A stretch of DNA of 64,000 nucleotides from NCBI RefSeq assembly GCF_020177265.1, contig NZ_JAIVMC010000004.1, forward strand, positions 248,001-312,000. Direction: 5' to 3'. A model generated the notes under the pieces. That model did no database searches and was not told where the DNA came from. It worked only from the letters and a program-made list of their open reading frames with translations. Origin of the DNA: Pseudooceanicola marinus (lineage in GTDB: Bacteria > Pseudomonadota > Alphaproteobacteria > Rhodobacterales > Rhodobacteraceae). Of this stretch, positions 25,247-40,083 are shown in pieces. Within the stretch, counting starts at the first letter, position 1. The number at the start of each line of letters is the position of its first letter. A program made the translations under genes and the position numbers.

Positions 25247-25372
25247 CATTTATGCGCGGTTTTCGGCATTGCTGCCTGTCCCGCAGAGCCGAGACTGCGC
25301 TGGCAGGGTTAACTTTCCATTGAAATGACTGGGCGGGCACGGGCCATCGGCTATGCGCGTCCCGGCGTTTCC

Positions 25373-34941: not shown

Positions 34942-36192
34942 TCAGGCTGCGGCCGAGGTCGGCAGGCCGGGCCGGTTTTCCCGCACCGGCAGGTGGATCA
35001 GGGCCGAGAAGGCGCCGACGCCCACGCCGACCCACCAGACCAGCGTGTAATCGCCGTGGATGTCGTACATCTTGCCGCCCAGCCAGACCCCCAGGAAGCC
35101 GCCGATCTGGTGGCTGAGAAAGACGATCCCGTAGAGCGTACCCATGTAGCGCATCCCGTAGATATGGGCGATCAGACCGGAGGTCAGCGGCACCGTCGCC
35201 AGCCACAGCCCGCCCATCAGGGCCGAGAAAATCAGTACCGAGGCCGGCGTGATCGGCAGCACGATGAAGGTGCCCGCCACGATGGTCCGCAGGGTGTAGA
35301 TGCCCGCCAGAAGGTACTTCTTCGGCAGCCGATTGCCCAGCCAGCCGGCGAAGAGCGTGCCGCCGATGTTGAACACCCCGATCAGCGAGATGGCGATGGC
35401 GCCAAGCGCCGAGGTGGTGGTGATGCCCAGCGACGCCAGGATCCCGCCCGAGGCAATGGGCCCGCACAGCTCGGTCACGAAGGCCGGGAAATGCGCGGTG
35501 ATGAAGGCCAGCTGGTAGCCGCAGGAAAAGAAGCCAAGAAAGATCATGGCAAAGGTCGGATCCTTGCCCGCGCGCACCAGGATCTGGCCCAGGGTCTCCT
35601 CCAGCTCGGCCTTGGTCGCGGGCGGGGCCGGGCTGCGCATCATCGGCAGAAGCAGCAGCACGGCCAGGATGGCGGCGGCGAAGACCAGGAAGACGTTCTG
35701 CCAGGGCATCATCCCCAGCAGGAATTCGGCCACCGGTGCGCCGACGACCTGGCCCGCGCTGCCCGCCGCCGTGGCGATGGCCAGCGCCATGGACCGGTGT
35801 TCGGGTGCCGCCGCGCGGCCCACCACCGCCAGGATCACGCCAAAGCCCGTGCCGGCGATGCCGAAGCCCACCAGGATCTCCAGCCCCCAATGCGCCTCGG
35901 GCGTCACGGCGAAGGAGGAGGCCACGAGGCCCGCGGCATAGATCACCGCCCCCAGGATGATCGCCCGCCGGTCGCCCAGCTTCTCGGCGAAGGCGCCGAA
36001 CAGGGGCTGGCCGATCCCCCAGGCCAGGTTCTGGATCGCGATGGCCAGCGAGAAGTCGGCGCGCATCCAGTTGAATTCCTCGGCGATCGGGATCTGGAAG
36101 ACCCCGAAACTGGCGCGGATGGCGAAGTTCACCAGGATGATCAGGCAGCCCACGATCAGCACGGGGGTCAGCAGGCGCGGGGCGGCTGTCAT
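34942..36192 (-). CDS. MFS transporter
   Basis: 416 residues with about 12 hydrophobic segments. The first half has the loop motif GAFAEKLGDRRAIILGAVIYAAG (MFS motif A-like), and a longer cytoplasmic loop lies mid-protein (KAELEETLGQILVRAGKD). The pattern resembles the monocarboxylate/oxalate-formate exchanger branch, but the substrate is not readable. GGAGG lies just before the ATG, preceded by a CCCAA/TTGGG hairpin. It is divergent from zapE. Confidence 0.91.
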   Translation of the reverse strand: MTAAPRLLTPVLIVGCLIILVNFAIRASFGVFQIPIAEEFNWMRADFSLAIAIQNLAWGIGQPLFGAFAEKLGDRRAIILGAVIYAAGLVASSFAVTPEAHWGLEILVGFGIAGTGFGVILAVVGRAAAPEHRSMALAIATAAGSAGQVVGAPVAEFLLGMMPWQNVFLVFAAAILAVLLLLPMMRSPAPPATKAELEETLGQILVRAGKDPTFAMIFLGFFSCGYQLAFITAHFPAFVTELCGPIASGGILASLGITTTSALGAIAISLIGVFNIGGTLFAGWLGNRLPKKYLLAGIYTLRTIVAGTFIVLPITPASVLIFSALMGGLWLATVPLTSGLIAHIYGMRYMGTLYGIVFLSHQIGGFLGVWLGGKMYDIHGDYTLVWWVGVGVGAFSALIHLPVRENRPGLPTSAAA

Positions 36193-36269
36193 GTCGGAGG
36201 TCCTCCCAAAGATTGGGCGCAGATTAGACTTTGCCCGGGGACAGTCAATTCAGCCTTCGTGAGGCGGGT

Positions 36270-36281
36270 CATTCGCGAATG
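36270..36281. promoter_or_regulatory. 12-bp perfect palindrome in the MFS/zapE promoter gap
   Basis: CATTCGCGAATG lies 42 bp upstream of the zapE start and 78 bp upstream of the MFS start. An AT-rich TATTAT (-10-like) lies between it and zapE. It could be a dimeric repressor site; no named regulator is implied. Confidence 0.35.
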
Positions 36282-36322
36282 TGCGCTTTCCCAGCCGGGG
36301 GTGGCGTATTATCTAGCCCCCC

Positions 36323-37405
36323 ATGAGCCAGAGCATGTCCGACATCTACCACGCCCGCGTCGCCAGCGGAGAGATCCGCCCCGACCCCGCGCAGGAACAC
36401 GTCCTGCCCGAGTTCGACCGTATCCGCGAGGGGCTGACCGCCCAGCCGGTGAAGCGCGGCTTCTTCGGCCGCAGGAAGGCCCCCGAGGCGCCGAAGGGGC
36501 TGTATCTGTGGGGCGGTGTCGGGCGCGGCAAGTCGATGCTGATGGATCTCTTCGTCGAAAGCCTGGACGTGCCGGTGCGCCGGGTCCACTTCCACGCCTT
36601 CATGCAGGAGATCCACGAGGGCATGCATGCCGCCCGCAAGGCCAATACCGAGGACAGCCTGGCCCCCGTCGCCGCCAAGGTGGTCGAGGACGTGAAGGTG
36701 CTGGCCTTCGACGAGATGCAGATCACCGACATCACCGACGCGATGATCGTCGGCCGCCTGTTCGAGGCGCTGTTCGACGCGGGCGTGGTGGTGGTCACGA
36801 CCTCCAACCGGGTGCCCGATGACCTCTACAAGGACGGGCTGAACCGGCAGCTGTTCCTGCCCTTCATCGAGCTGATCAAGGACCGGCTGGTGGTGCATGA
36901 GCTGGAGAGCCCGCATGACTATCGCCAGCACCGCCTGTCCGGCCAGCAGGTCTATTTCACCCCCGCCAATGCCGAGGCGCGTCGCCAGATCGAGGCCTAC
37001 TGGCACGATCTGACCGGCGACACCGGCGCGGGCGAGCCGCTGGTGCTGAAGGTGAAGGGGCGCGAGGTGACGATCCCCGCCTATCGCTCCGGCGTGGGGC
37101 GGGCGTCCTTCCACGACCTCTGCGGCGCGATGCTGGGGCCGGGGGATTACCTGGCCGTGGCCGAGGCGGTCGAGGTGCTGATCCTCGAAGACATCCCCTG
37201 CCTGGGCCGGTCGAACTTCAACGAGGCGAAACGCTTCGTCACGCTGATCGACGCGCTTTACGAGGCGAAGGTGCGGCTGATCTGTTCCGCCGCCGACCAG
37301 CCCGAAAGCCTTTATCGCGAGGGCGAGGGGGTGTTCGAGTTCGAGCGCACGGCCAGCCGCCTGCGCGAGATGCAGGACAAGGACTGGGGCGCCGAGGACG
37401 ACTGA
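36323..37405 (+). CDS. zapE: Cell division ATPase ZapE (AFG1 family)
   Basis: 360 residues. Walker A GGVGRGKS near 65-72, Walker B LAFDEMQITD, VTTSNRVPDDLYKDGLNRQLFLPFI as sensor region, and YRSGVGRASFHDLCGAMLGPGDYL in the C-terminal part, all as in AFG1/ZapE. In E. coli ZapE acts on FtsZ rings under some conditions; mitochondrial AFG1 helps protein quality control. The ATG at 36323 has little ribosome site, and the ATG at 36335 (MSDIYHARV) is an equally possible start. In many alphaproteobacteria mdh-suc genes follow zapE; here they do not. Confidence 0.93.
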   Translation: MSQSMSDIYHARVASGEIRPDPAQEHVLPEFDRIREGLTAQPVKRGFFGRRKAPEAPKGLYLWGGVGRGKSMLMDLFVESLDVPVRRVHFHAFMQEIHEGMHAARKANTEDSLAPVAAKVVEDVKVLAFDEMQITDITDAMIVGRLFEALFDAGVVVVTTSNRVPDDLYKDGLNRQLFLPFIELIKDRLVVHELESPHDYRQHRLSGQQVYFTPANAEARRQIEAYWHDLTGDTGAGEPLVLKVKGREVTIPAYRSGVGRASFHDLCGAMLGPGDYLAVAEAVEVLILEDIPCLGRSNFNEAKRFVTLIDALYEAKVRLICSAADQPESLYREGEGVFEFERTASRLREMQDKDWGAEDD

Positions 37406-37475
37406 CCTTTGGGGCGGGGCGCCTGACTGCAAGAAGGGGGCCGTTGTCCGACCCGTCGACCTGAATGGCCGCCTG

Positions 37476-37506
37476 AAAAGAAAAAGGGGGTCGTTGTCCG
37501 ACCCCC
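37476..37506 (-). terminator. Rho-independent terminator on the minus strand
   Basis: On the minus strand, GGGGGTCG and CGACCCCC (37486-37506) form a perfect 8-bp stem with a 5-nt loop, followed by TTTTTCTTTT (37485-37476). folC ends 287 bp upstream on that strand, so it is either a distant accD-folC terminator or the end of a separate small RNA. Confidence 0.75.
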
Positions 37507-37604
37507 TGTGTTCTGCCCGATAGATCCCAAGTCTGCGACATGGTCCGACACGCGGTGATAGGCTGCTGTGCGAGCCGTCCCATGCAGATGAACGCCTGAT
37601 CTGT
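37480..37604 (-). ncRNA. Candidate small RNA between folC and zapE
   Basis: Inferred transcript of about 125 nt. The minus-strand promoter at 37611-37638 would start it near 37604 and the hairpin-plus-T-tract at 37476-37506 would end it. No open reading frame with a ribosome site fits inside. The whole 387-bp gap is clearly less GC-rich than its surroundings. Not recognised as any known RNA family. Confidence 0.4.
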
Positions 37605-37610
37605 AAGGAC

Positions 37611-37638
37611 TTTATGCGAATCGAATCGAAACGGTCAA
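37611..37638 (-). promoter_or_regulatory. Candidate promoter with GANTC sites in its spacer
   Basis: Minus strand: TTGACC (37638-37633), a 16-bp spacer, CATAAA (37616-37611). The spacer contains two GAATC (GANTC) sequences, so CcrM methylation could alter promoter use. Confidence 0.4.
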
Positions 37639-37750
37639 TGCAAAACGAATCGGTTTACGGGCGGTTTCGTCCCGCCGGTCAAGAAGTGATTCGGAAACCC
37701 GATTCGGAACAGCGTCTTACGAGTCACTCTTGAAGTGACGGAAATTTCCG
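37617..37750. repeat. CGAATC/GATTCG iteron and GANTC cluster
   Basis: CGAATC occurs at 37617, 37622 and 37646, and the inverse GATTCG at 37688 and 37701. GANTC occurs six times between 37618 and 37725. The arms CGAATCGGTTT (37646-37656) and AAACCCGATTCG (37695-37706) can pair around an inner GGCGG/CCGCC hairpin. Further out are GTCACT/AGTGAC and the perfect palindrome CGGAAATTTCCG (37739-37750). No gene is seen in 37406-37792. Confidence 0.6.
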
Positions 37751-37792
37751 CAGGCTCCGGGCCATGGGGGCTGTCGCCGCGCCGAAGCCGGG

Positions 37793-39067
37793 TCAGCCGT
37801 TGATCCGCAGCACGTCGCCCGCGAAATAAAGCGATCCGCAGAACATGATCCGTGCCTGGGGCGTCTCGGCGACGATGGCCGCCAGGGCTGCCTCTATGCT
37901 CGGGGCCGTCTGCGCCTGCATCCCGCATTCGCGCGCCGTTTGCGCCAGGGTGTCGGCGGGCAGGGCGGCATCCGCGCCCGCGATCGTCACCGCTGTCAGC
38001 CTGTCGGTGCAGGCGGCCAGGGGGCCGAGGTAGCCGCTGGCATCCTTGGTGTTCAGCATGCCGCAGATCAGGTGGGTCGGCCGCGCCGGGCGCGAGGACA
38101 GGAAGTCGGCCAGCGCCTTGCCGGCGGCCGGGTTGTGCCCGCCGTCGAGCCAGATCTCCGCCTCGGGGGCGGCCTCGGCCAGGGTGCCGGTCGTCAGCCG
38201 TTGCAGCCGCGCGGACCATGTGGCGCCGGTGACGGCGGCCTCGCAGGCGGCCTCGTCGAAGCCCAGGTAGCGCAGCGCGGCCAGGGCGGCGCCGGCGTTC
38301 TGGATCTGGTGGGCGCCGGGCAGGGCGGGCAGGGGCAGATCCAGCAGGCCGTTTTCGTCCTGGAAGATCAGCCGCCCACGTTCTTCCCAGGCATGCCAGT
38401 GCTGCCCGTAGGCCAGCAGCGGCGCGCCCAGGGCGGTGGCGCGGGCCTCGATCACCTCCAGAGCCTCCTCGGGCTGGGGGCCGACGACGCAGGGCACGCC
38501 CCGCTTGAGGATGCCGGCCTTCTCGGCGGCGATCCGGGCCAGGGTGTCGCCAAGGAAGGCCTCGTGATCCATGGAGATGGGGGTGATGATGGTCATCGCC
38601 GGCTGCGCCACGACGTTGGTGGCGTCCAGGCGTCCGCCCAGGCCGGTTTCCAGCAGGCACCAGTCGGCGGGCGTGCGGGCGAAGGCCAGCAGGGCGGCGA
38701 CGGTGGTGATCTCGAAATAGGTGATCGCCTCGGGGCCGTTGGCCGCCAGGCATTCATCGAGGATCGCCGTCAGCTCGTCCTCGGGGATCAGCGTGCCGGC
38801 CAGGCGGATGCGTTCATGGAAGCGCACCAGGTGCGGCGAGGTATAGGCATGGGTCGTCTTCCCCGCCCCCTCGATGCCCGCGCGCAGCATGGCCTGGGTC
38901 GACCCCTTGCCGTTGGTGCCCGCCAGGTGGATCACCGGCGGCAGCTTTTCCTCGGGATGATCCAGCGCGGCCAGCAGCCGCCAGACACGGTCCAGCACCA
39001 GGTCGATGACCTTGGGGTGCAACTGCATCATGCGCGCCAGAAGCGCGTCGGACGTCGCTGCCGTCAC
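37793..39067 (-). CDS. folC: Bifunctional folylpolyglutamate synthase / dihydrofolate synthase
   Basis: 424 residues. The Mur-ligase-type ATP loop [18 protein letters not shown] is near 46-63, then [17 protein letters not shown], the dihydropteroate-site stretch [15 protein letters not shown], and [14 protein letters not shown]. It makes dihydrofolate and extends folate polyglutamate tails. It starts with GTG and overlaps the accD stop by 4 nt (GTGA), so it is co-translated with accD, as in many bacteria. Confidence 0.96.
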
Positions 39068-40083
39068 TTTTCGGACTTGCTCTTCTTGCCGGCCTCGGCG
39101 GGCTTGGCCTCGGCCTTTGCATTCTCCGCCTCGGCCTCGGCGGCGGCCTTCGCTTCGGCGGCTTCGGCCTCGGCTTCCGCTTCGGTGGCCTCGGTCATCG
39201 GGGCGGGCGGGGGCAGGTCACCGGCCACGGCGGGCGGCAGACCCATCAGCATGCGCGTGATGGTGATCAGCTCTTCGCGCATCTTGGTGCGCGGGGTCAC
39301 GCGGTCCAGCATGCCGTGATCCAGCAGGTATTCCGCCCGTTGGAAGCCTTCGGGCAGCTGTTCGCGGATCGTCTGTTCGATCACCCGCGGCCCGGCGAAG
39401 CAGATCAGCGCATTGGGTTCGGCGATCTGCACGTCACCCAGCATCGCGTAGGAGGCGGTAACGCCCCCGGTGGTCGGGTGGGTCAGCACGACGATGTAGG
39501 GCAGCCCGGCCTCTTTCAGCATCTGCACGGCCACGGTGGTGCGCGGCATCTGCATCAGCGACAGGATGCCTTCCTGCATCCGCGCGCCCCCGGCGGCGGA
39601 GAACAGCACCAGCGGGCACTTCTTCTGCACGGCGCGTTCGGCGGCGGCGATGATCGCGTTGCCCACGTACATCCCCATGGAGCCACCCATGAAGGAGAAG
39701 TCCTGCGCGGCGGCGACGACCGGCGCGCGGCCCATCTCGCCCTCGGCCACCAGCATCGCCTCCTTCTCGGAGGTCTTGCGGCGCGCCTCGCGCATGCGGT
39801 CGGGGTATTTCTTCTGGTCGCGGAAATGCAGCGGGTCGGCCACGGGTTCCGGCACGGAGACCTCGGTGAAGATGCCGCCGTCGAACAGGTTGCGGAAGCG
39901 GTCGCGCGGCGAAATCCCCATGTGATGCCCGCAGCTGGTGCAGACGTTCAGGTTTTCCTTCAGCTCACGGTGGAACAGCATCGTCCCGCAACTGTCGCAC
40001 TTGGACCAGAGGTTCTCGGGCACTTCCCGGCGCGAGAAGATCGAGTTGATCCGCGGCCGGACGTAATTGCTGATCCAGTTCAT
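39064..40083 (-). CDS. accD: Acetyl-CoA carboxylase carboxyltransferase subunit beta
   Basis: 339 residues. The N-terminal zinc finger has Cys-29, Cys-32, Cys-48 and Cys-51, and the crotonase-like carboxyltransferase core includes [29 protein letters not shown] and [16 protein letters not shown]. It forms malonyl-CoA with AccA and biotinyl-AccB. An extra C-terminal tail of about 44 residues (296-339) is made almost only of A, E and K, absent from the roughly 304-residue E. coli protein. The ATG at 40083 begins [10 protein letters not shown], the usual alphaproteobacterial start. Confidence 0.96.

Follow-up and report, generated by a model that had tools for sequence, protein, structure and literature searches.

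Why should a genome that otherwise avoids the sequence GANTC carry six copies of it within 108 bp, in the gap between zapE and folC of Pseudooceanicola marinus? The window, by which we mean the whole 64,000-nucleotide stretch of DNA that was analysed, holds these six sites exactly where a preliminary description had placed them (37618, 37623, 37647, 37688, 37701 and 37721), three of them reading GAATC, two GATTC and one GAGTC. The expectation of roughly one GANTC per 300 bp given in that description was too generous: shuffled sequence gave about one per 257 bp, but a real sample of the same genome (19 other 20-kb stretches, 380 kb) contained 297, or one per 1279 bp. In the window 37 sites were counted against 249 expected from dinucleotide-preserving shuffles, a depletion of about 7-fold, and in window and sample together GANTC was the rarest of eight palindromes of the 2-N-2 form (334 occurrences against 452 to 1164). 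At the rate of one per 1279 bp, six sites in 108 bp have a Poisson probability of about 5e-10 per place, equivalent to about 0.002 expected per genome. No 110-bp stretch of the 380 kb sampled held six sites, and the maximum in any of 7011 half-overlapping 108-bp segments of the sample was four. The GC content of the cluster is 52%, and the 294 sample segments with GC of 56% or less likewise contained four sites at most, so that the idea that clusters of this density are common in AT-richer gaps was not borne out.

The sites were found to be conserved among relatives in the genus alignment. Two other features of the preliminary description fared less well. The GGCGG/CCGCC hairpin seen among the sites is disrupted already in the nearest relative, and the adjoining palindrome CGGAAATTTCCG, which is indeed present at 37740-37751, is whole only in the window and its nearest relative among nine loci aligned. 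The RNA fold of 191 nt around the cluster was no better than shuffles (z of -0.55 and -1.21), and no second strong match to the cluster region was found elsewhere in the same genome.

Read on the minus strand, the cluster looks like a sigma70-type promoter, as predicted from its -35 and -10 elements and from the positions of the sites relative to them. The promoter character suggested in the preliminary description was thus supported, and to it are added here the minus-strand orientation, the -35 and -10 elements, a terminator and a predicted RNA. The features are as follows.

36323 to 37405, plus strand: zapE (AFG1-like ATPase), the convergent neighbour; Pfam PF03969, NCBIfam NF040713.
37480 to 37602, minus strand: predicted small RNA of about 120 nt, delimited by promoter and terminator, its start placed from the -10.
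37485 to 37507, minus strand: intrinsic terminator, AGGGGGTCG-GACAA-CGACCCCCT then TTTTTCTTTT.
37538 to 37585, minus strand: RNA hairpin, its loop nearly invariant in six rows.
37610 to 37615, minus strand: -10 region ATAAAG, separated from the -35 by 17 bp; in alignment it corresponds to CTATA(T) of other genera.
37618 to 37622: GANTC within the spacer, about -16 to -20; 18 of the 19 genus rows have it.
37623 to 37627: spacer GANTC at about -21 to -25; the window reads GTTTC at the usual -26 to -30 site.
37633 to 37638, minus strand: -35 element TTGACC from a promoter scan, TTGACY in the 19 genus rows keeping the promoter.
37647 to 37651: a third GANTC, close upstream of the -35 (about -45 to -49), which all 19 genus rows retain.
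37688 to 37705: upstream GANTC pair (37688 and 37701), each site within a TTCCGAATC-type repeat and the repeats 13 bp apart; 9 of the 19 genus rows have the pair.
37721 to 37725: sixth GANTC (GAGTC), at equal spacing only in L020 and L021.
37793 to 39067, minus strand: folC, the upstream neighbour on the same strand as the RNA; NCBIfam TIGR01499.

All site positions are counted from the RNA start at 37602, which was deduced from the -10, and on this count the upstream TTCCGAATC-type pair falls at about -86 to -103. The promoter scan itself chose a different -10, TAAAGT with an 18-bp spacer, from the alignment-based one at 37615-37610. Many promoters of other genera have CTATAT after 17 bp, and the consensus over 57 distinct promoters is CTATANN. 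The -10 of the window is weak, and its -26 GANTC has been lost. That site, at -26 to -30, is GANTC in 17 of 19 genus rows; the window and L027 are without it and both have a GANTC 5 bp further on, a pattern that selection for two spacer sites would produce. Two or more spacer sites were present in 18 of the 19 rows, with one in L024. The promoter points towards the 3' end of zapE and the terminator at 37507-37485.

Since zapE is convergent with this promoter, its own promoter lies elsewhere, and the link to zapE that the preliminary description had thought suggestive was dropped together with the reading of the cluster as a zapE regulatory element. The CGAATC repeats described as iterons are irregularly spaced and run in both directions. 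An iteron-type origin or other replication-linked site was rejected on these irregular repeats and on the absence from the window of any DnaA box (TTWTNCACA) or clear GC-skew switch. The locus has no CtrA-type site, the single match with one mismatch being at 25309.

Conservation was followed first by zapE, which was found in 21 of 22 Pseudooceanicola genomes (some of which carry other genus names) as 22 pieces. One piece ending at a contig end (L039) was left out, and 19 of the 21 usable zapE loci had the promoter. By pattern with up to 2 mismatches, 19 of the 22 genomes were matched and the reversed control gave 0; a variant with one spacer site in G021 brings the count to 20 of 22. Each matched genome has one such place, except G007 with a second, weak match (at most 2 mismatches). 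In G020 the zapE locus (L038) retains the RNA body with different letters upstream, on a contig that stops 263 bp after zapE, and the promoter was matched (at most 2 mismatches) on another contig. The promoter was absent from G001 (99% complete), whose locus L034 is without GANTC there, and from G014 (66% complete). Across the genus the core promoter had a mean pairwise identity of 79%, the upstream site 84% and the 7 bases separating them 35%; for the RNA body it was 45%, for the terminator 75%, and the CGGGCA which precedes the terminator was 85% alike.

A link to the methyltransferase CcrM, made in the preliminary description on general grounds, held up in this genome, which shows GANTC avoidance of the CcrM type and has both CcrM-type and GcrA genes. 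The CcrM-type gene is a 370-aa ORF with a RAMA domain, for which the best NCBIfam match was CcrM at 638 bits, below the model cut-off of 830. A search for GcrA (PF07750), whose controls also matched in Sulfolobus, detected it in 21 of the 22 genus genomes. GcrA works with sigma70 and has been proposed, in the excerpted text of PMC7987155, as an activator of methylated promoters with YGAKTCG. The spacer sites read YGATTCG, and CGATTCG occurs twice in the spacer of the window, fitting this motif. For Brevundimonas subvibrioides the same excerpts report no extended-motif preference, save a slight one for C before the site (PMC7987155). In Caulobacter, a GANTC between -10 and -35 was associated with activation at 40-60 min, with sites at -29/-28 in ctrA P1 and -24 in podJ P2, and only 31% of GcrA-enriched cell-cycle starts have a GANTC within 50 bp, according to the portions of PMC4287350 consulted. 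The usual spacer site of the genus, at about -26 to -30, agrees in position with these Caulobacter sites. In the studied genome TTGACNGANTC was not enriched (7 places, with 15 for the reversed pattern), and none of the 7 had a second GANTC within 60 bases.

The sample of 380 kb contained two places with four GANTC in 110 bp, and in each the last site lies inside a reading frame. One, L268:2174-2289, stands at the start of a DivIC/FtsB-like gene (PF04977) and holds TGATTCGCCTACAC, much like the studied promoter; it is likely, judging by its letters, to be a further CcrM/GcrA-type promoter. The other, L260:6649-6756, lies where a RodZ-like gene (PF13413, PF13464) begins, and its letters include GACTCGAATC. 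Three GANTC in 110 bp were found at four further places (L270, L273 twice and L276).

The predicted RNA is intergenic, with its own promoter and an intrinsic terminator, as a stand-alone small RNA would be. The nearest relative by FolC is also P. marinus (98%), and against it 37485-37602 was identical at 117 of 118 positions and the promoter with its upstream site differed at 2 of 50; identity in the flanks was 71% on the zapE side (37406-37484) and 90% on the folC side. Six related rows share a hairpin of 15 pairs which, taken together with the terminator, had 92% of cells paired, a level that 0 of 500 shuffles matched. The covariation score of 0.154 was likewise reached by 0 of 500 shuffles. 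Changes on both sides were seen in five cells (1 of 500 shuffles reached this) and in four pairs (11 of 500), and eight further pair types occurred (95 of 500). These shuffle statistics ignore relatedness and the covariation leans mainly on the divergent row L024, and a shift of the alignment by one column still left three pairs changed on both sides. The compensatory changes belong to one subclade of six rows, the folds of other subclades being different. A consensus fold of 20 genus rows gave only the terminator and the GANTC inverted repeat, and the claim for the hairpin is therefore confined to the six rows.

Ten rows were read for a shared closed reading frame in the RNA and none was found: an ATG frame in five rows crosses the terminator and is absent in L024, and an 11-codon TTG frame is closed in three. 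A 12-nt antisense of the hairpin loop, used to look for targets, matched only its own locus in four of six genomes, with one extra match in each of the other two. No tRNA or tmRNA was found in the window. A known RNA family was also rejected, as an Rfam search of 36000-39500 at E up to 5 returned no family match and only three unrelated sub-threshold matches. On the zapE side a 38-nt direct repeat (37417-37454 and 37467-37504, 82% alike) takes in the hairpin of the terminator together with a second, terminator-like copy nearer zapE, an arrangement in which the RNA could end at tandem terminators or have terminators in common with zapE.

To see what lies behind the promoter elsewhere, 84,980 genomes were scanned for exact matches to the pattern TTGACYGATTCNNNNYGATTCG. 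The scan gave 85 stretches; the analysis used the 80 loci listed among them and set aside 17 of these that had no folC or zapE match (other phyla, three Sphingobium and one Aminobacter). Of the remaining 63 matches listed, 58 were preceded by a same-strand folC match, which in 53 of the 58 lies 15-188 bp ahead of the -35, and the five without folC (L077, L080, L104, L129 and L132) were retained on titles and promoter letters. A script sorted these 63 listed loci into 28 with a terminator only, 16 with a rhodanese-like ORF and 4 with LysM, leaving 13 unsorted and 2 too short. Several of the unsorted loci are Pseudooceanicola or Primorskyibacter with a GGGGACCG-type terminator which the search pattern missed, and L091 has a LysM match at greater distance; L108 and L110 are identical in sequence. 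A LysM match follows the rhodanese-like ORF in 15 of the 16 listed loci, L100 ending first. Pfam scans found Rhodanese (PF00581) in 3 of 3 and LysM (PF01476) in 3 of 3 proteins scanned. One such rhodanese-like protein (L097:1510-2139, minus strand) is about 210 aa long with a signal-peptide-like start and the motifs CPPFC and FCNGPWCDQ, and lies beside LysM proteins; no NCBIfam model matched its family at E up to 0.001.

Near zapE, on the strand of the RNA, a GGGGCCG-N3-CAA-CGGCCCC hairpin was present in 6 of the 12 rhodanese loci in which the zapE end is visible, two of the six being of identical sequence, and in five of the six GGCAGG stands 13-19 nt ahead of it. The same arrangement of GGCAGG and hairpin also occurs before zapE in gene-free loci, for example L105, L136 and many other rows.

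Across the family, 20 of 394 genomes, representing 19 of 393 genera, matched the pattern with up to 1 mismatch and the reversed control gave 0, so most genera are without the promoter at this threshold. Besides the studied genome there were 19 matches, 17 with folC in place, one with the rhodanese gene and one, L242, that has the look of a chance match. Sampling free of the pattern gave a similar picture: 61 family genomes were searched with FolC and 58 downstream stretches read, of which six scored above 25 with a promoter matrix (window included), three scored 2 to 18 and the rest fell below -10. The promoter is nearly fixed in Pseudooceanicola and patchy across the family. About 600 nt past the end of folC in L208, from another genus, a TTTGACAGGCGAATCGCGATTCGCCTAAGC stretch resembles a differently spaced version of the promoter. 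A plasmid collection gave only two distant Ruegeria matches, which cover the zapE end.

A FolC tree was built from 72 proteins, to which named loci contributed 50, the window one, and family loci chosen by hand as lacking the promoter 21, with loci having neither rhodanese nor LysM labelled RNA-only and two left out of the labelling. The four cargo states required 14 changes on this tree (shuffled mean 31.5); on strongly supported branches at least 5 changes were needed for RNA-only and at least 4 for rhodanese, and the LysM-only state was not clustered. As the tree is of one gene with many weak forks, it does not settle the direction of cargo change.

The reading that we consider probable, with appreciable room for doubt, is that the locus is a CcrM/GcrA-type promoter whose protein genes were lost and whose leader and trailer are left as a probably functional small RNA. 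CcrM would methylate the GANTC sites in the spacer and at the upstream edge of the minus-strand promoter, and GcrA bound to sigma70 would use these sites, so that transcription would track the local methylation state and hence the cell cycle. Passage of replication would leave the sites hemimethylated, GcrA-sigma70 would respond with a pulse of RNA, and CcrM would then reset the sites. The product at this locus would be a terminated, structured RNA of about 120 nt made between folC and zapE, most likely acting by base-pairing in trans; in related genera the promoter would drive a periplasmic rhodanese-like gene and a LysM gene. Because the zapE-side terminator also stands behind the rhodanese-LysM genes in about half of those loci, the RNA can be understood as the leader and trailer of an operon after gene loss, and the sharing of the terminator favours loss as the direction of cargo change.

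The same evidence could mean that the promoter is simply orphaned, with the rhodanese-LysM genes gone and a functionless short by-product halting at the old operon terminator. Elsewhere this promoter does precede rhodanese-LysM or LysM genes, the RNA body is variable across the genus, and the RNA has no exclusive claim to the GGGGCCG...CGGCCCC terminator, which 6 of 12 rhodanese loci also have. A useless transcript would sit less easily with an RNA and terminator matching the nearest relative at 117 of 118 positions against 71% for the zapE-side flank, with compensatory hairpin changes in one subclade, with CGGGCA ahead of the terminator at 85% against 45% for the body, and with retention of the promoter in 19 of 21 genus zapE loci although zapE comes directly after. 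The near-identity and the covariation favour a functional RNA over a remnant of gene loss, and we hold the orphaned promoter to be unlikely while giving it real weight.

Two further explanations take the transcript or the sites out of the account. The DNA cluster itself could be a protein binding site timed by hemimethylation and linked to the origin or to segregation, transcription being incidental; up to six sites, with the -86 to -103 pair in 9 of 19 rows, exceed what a promoter needs. We find this quite improbable, as the conserved sites are locked to the -35 and -10, the sites of relatives directly precede genes, and there is neither a DnaA box or clear skew switch in the window nor, at the locus, a site of CtrA type. 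If instead the promoter were of the plain constitutive sigma70 kind and its GANTC letters accidental, TTGACC and a -10-like hexamer would suffice for the promoter call, and the lack of enrichment of TTGACNGANTC in the genome would agree with this reading. Set against it are the depletion of GANTC in the window by about 7-fold, the pair of spacer sites in 18 of 19 rows, a site being shifted by 5 bp in two rows, and the 20 of 394 family genomes with the pattern against 0 for its reverse, and we regard it as very improbable indeed.

The promoter resembles ctrA P1 and podJ P2 of Caulobacter in being of sigma70 type with GANTC in the -10/-35 spacer and YGAKTCG, in a genome with GcrA and CcrM-type genes (excerpted text of PMC4287350 and PMC7987155). 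It is unlike the Caulobacter GcrA/CcrM promoters in usually having two spacer GANTC 10 bp apart, a third at -45 to -49 and a predicted short RNA as its product; in Caulobacter 11 of 96 GANTC-bearing cell-cycle starts have more than one GANTC within 50 bp, by the excerpts of PMC4287350. CcnA of Caulobacter is likewise short and noncoding and is connected with the cell-cycle network of alphaproteobacteria, the RNA here being a predicted one; CcnA is located in the replication origin, and CtrA is its proposed activator (excerpts of PMC8959179), whereas here a GANTC promoter lies beside folC without a CtrA-type site. EcpR1 and GspR of Sinorhizobium are described in the parts of PMC4414408 and PMC5928217 consulted as alphaproteobacterial sRNAs acting on dnaA/gcrA or ctrA mRNAs; their neighbourhood differs from that of the present RNA, which matched no Rfam sRNA family at E up to 5. 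For RepE of Agrobacterium an influence of GcrA was suggested by its authors, which is a point of likeness, but RepE is an antisense RNA of a repABC operon and suggested to be repressed (excerpts of PMC11514494), and the RNA here is predicted to be stand-alone and terminated. A literature search over titles and the starts of abstracts, with subscription papers outside its scope, found no paper describing the folC-zapE promoter or RNA locus and no mapped CcrM/GcrA regulon for roseobacters.

We propose more tentatively, leaning somewhat towards doubt, that the promoter has been kept as a unit while its cargo was swapped several times, between rhodanese-LysM genes, LysM by itself and a structured RNA formed from the former leader and trailer, and that it yields an undescribed regulatory RNA in a pulse timed by replication, once per cell cycle, in Pseudooceanicola and other roseobacters. 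Roseobacters are abundant marine bacteria. What the locus provides is a sharply defined promoter, as a rule in one copy per genome, whose several GANTC hold fixed positions, and as lineages differ by single sites it can be asked how many methylated sites GcrA reads and which of them count. It is also a case of a regulatory element persisting while the genes behind it change. The predicted small RNA is undescribed, and DNA methylation probably sets the time of its synthesis in the cell cycle; the locus would in this way link DNA methylation to noncoding RNA.
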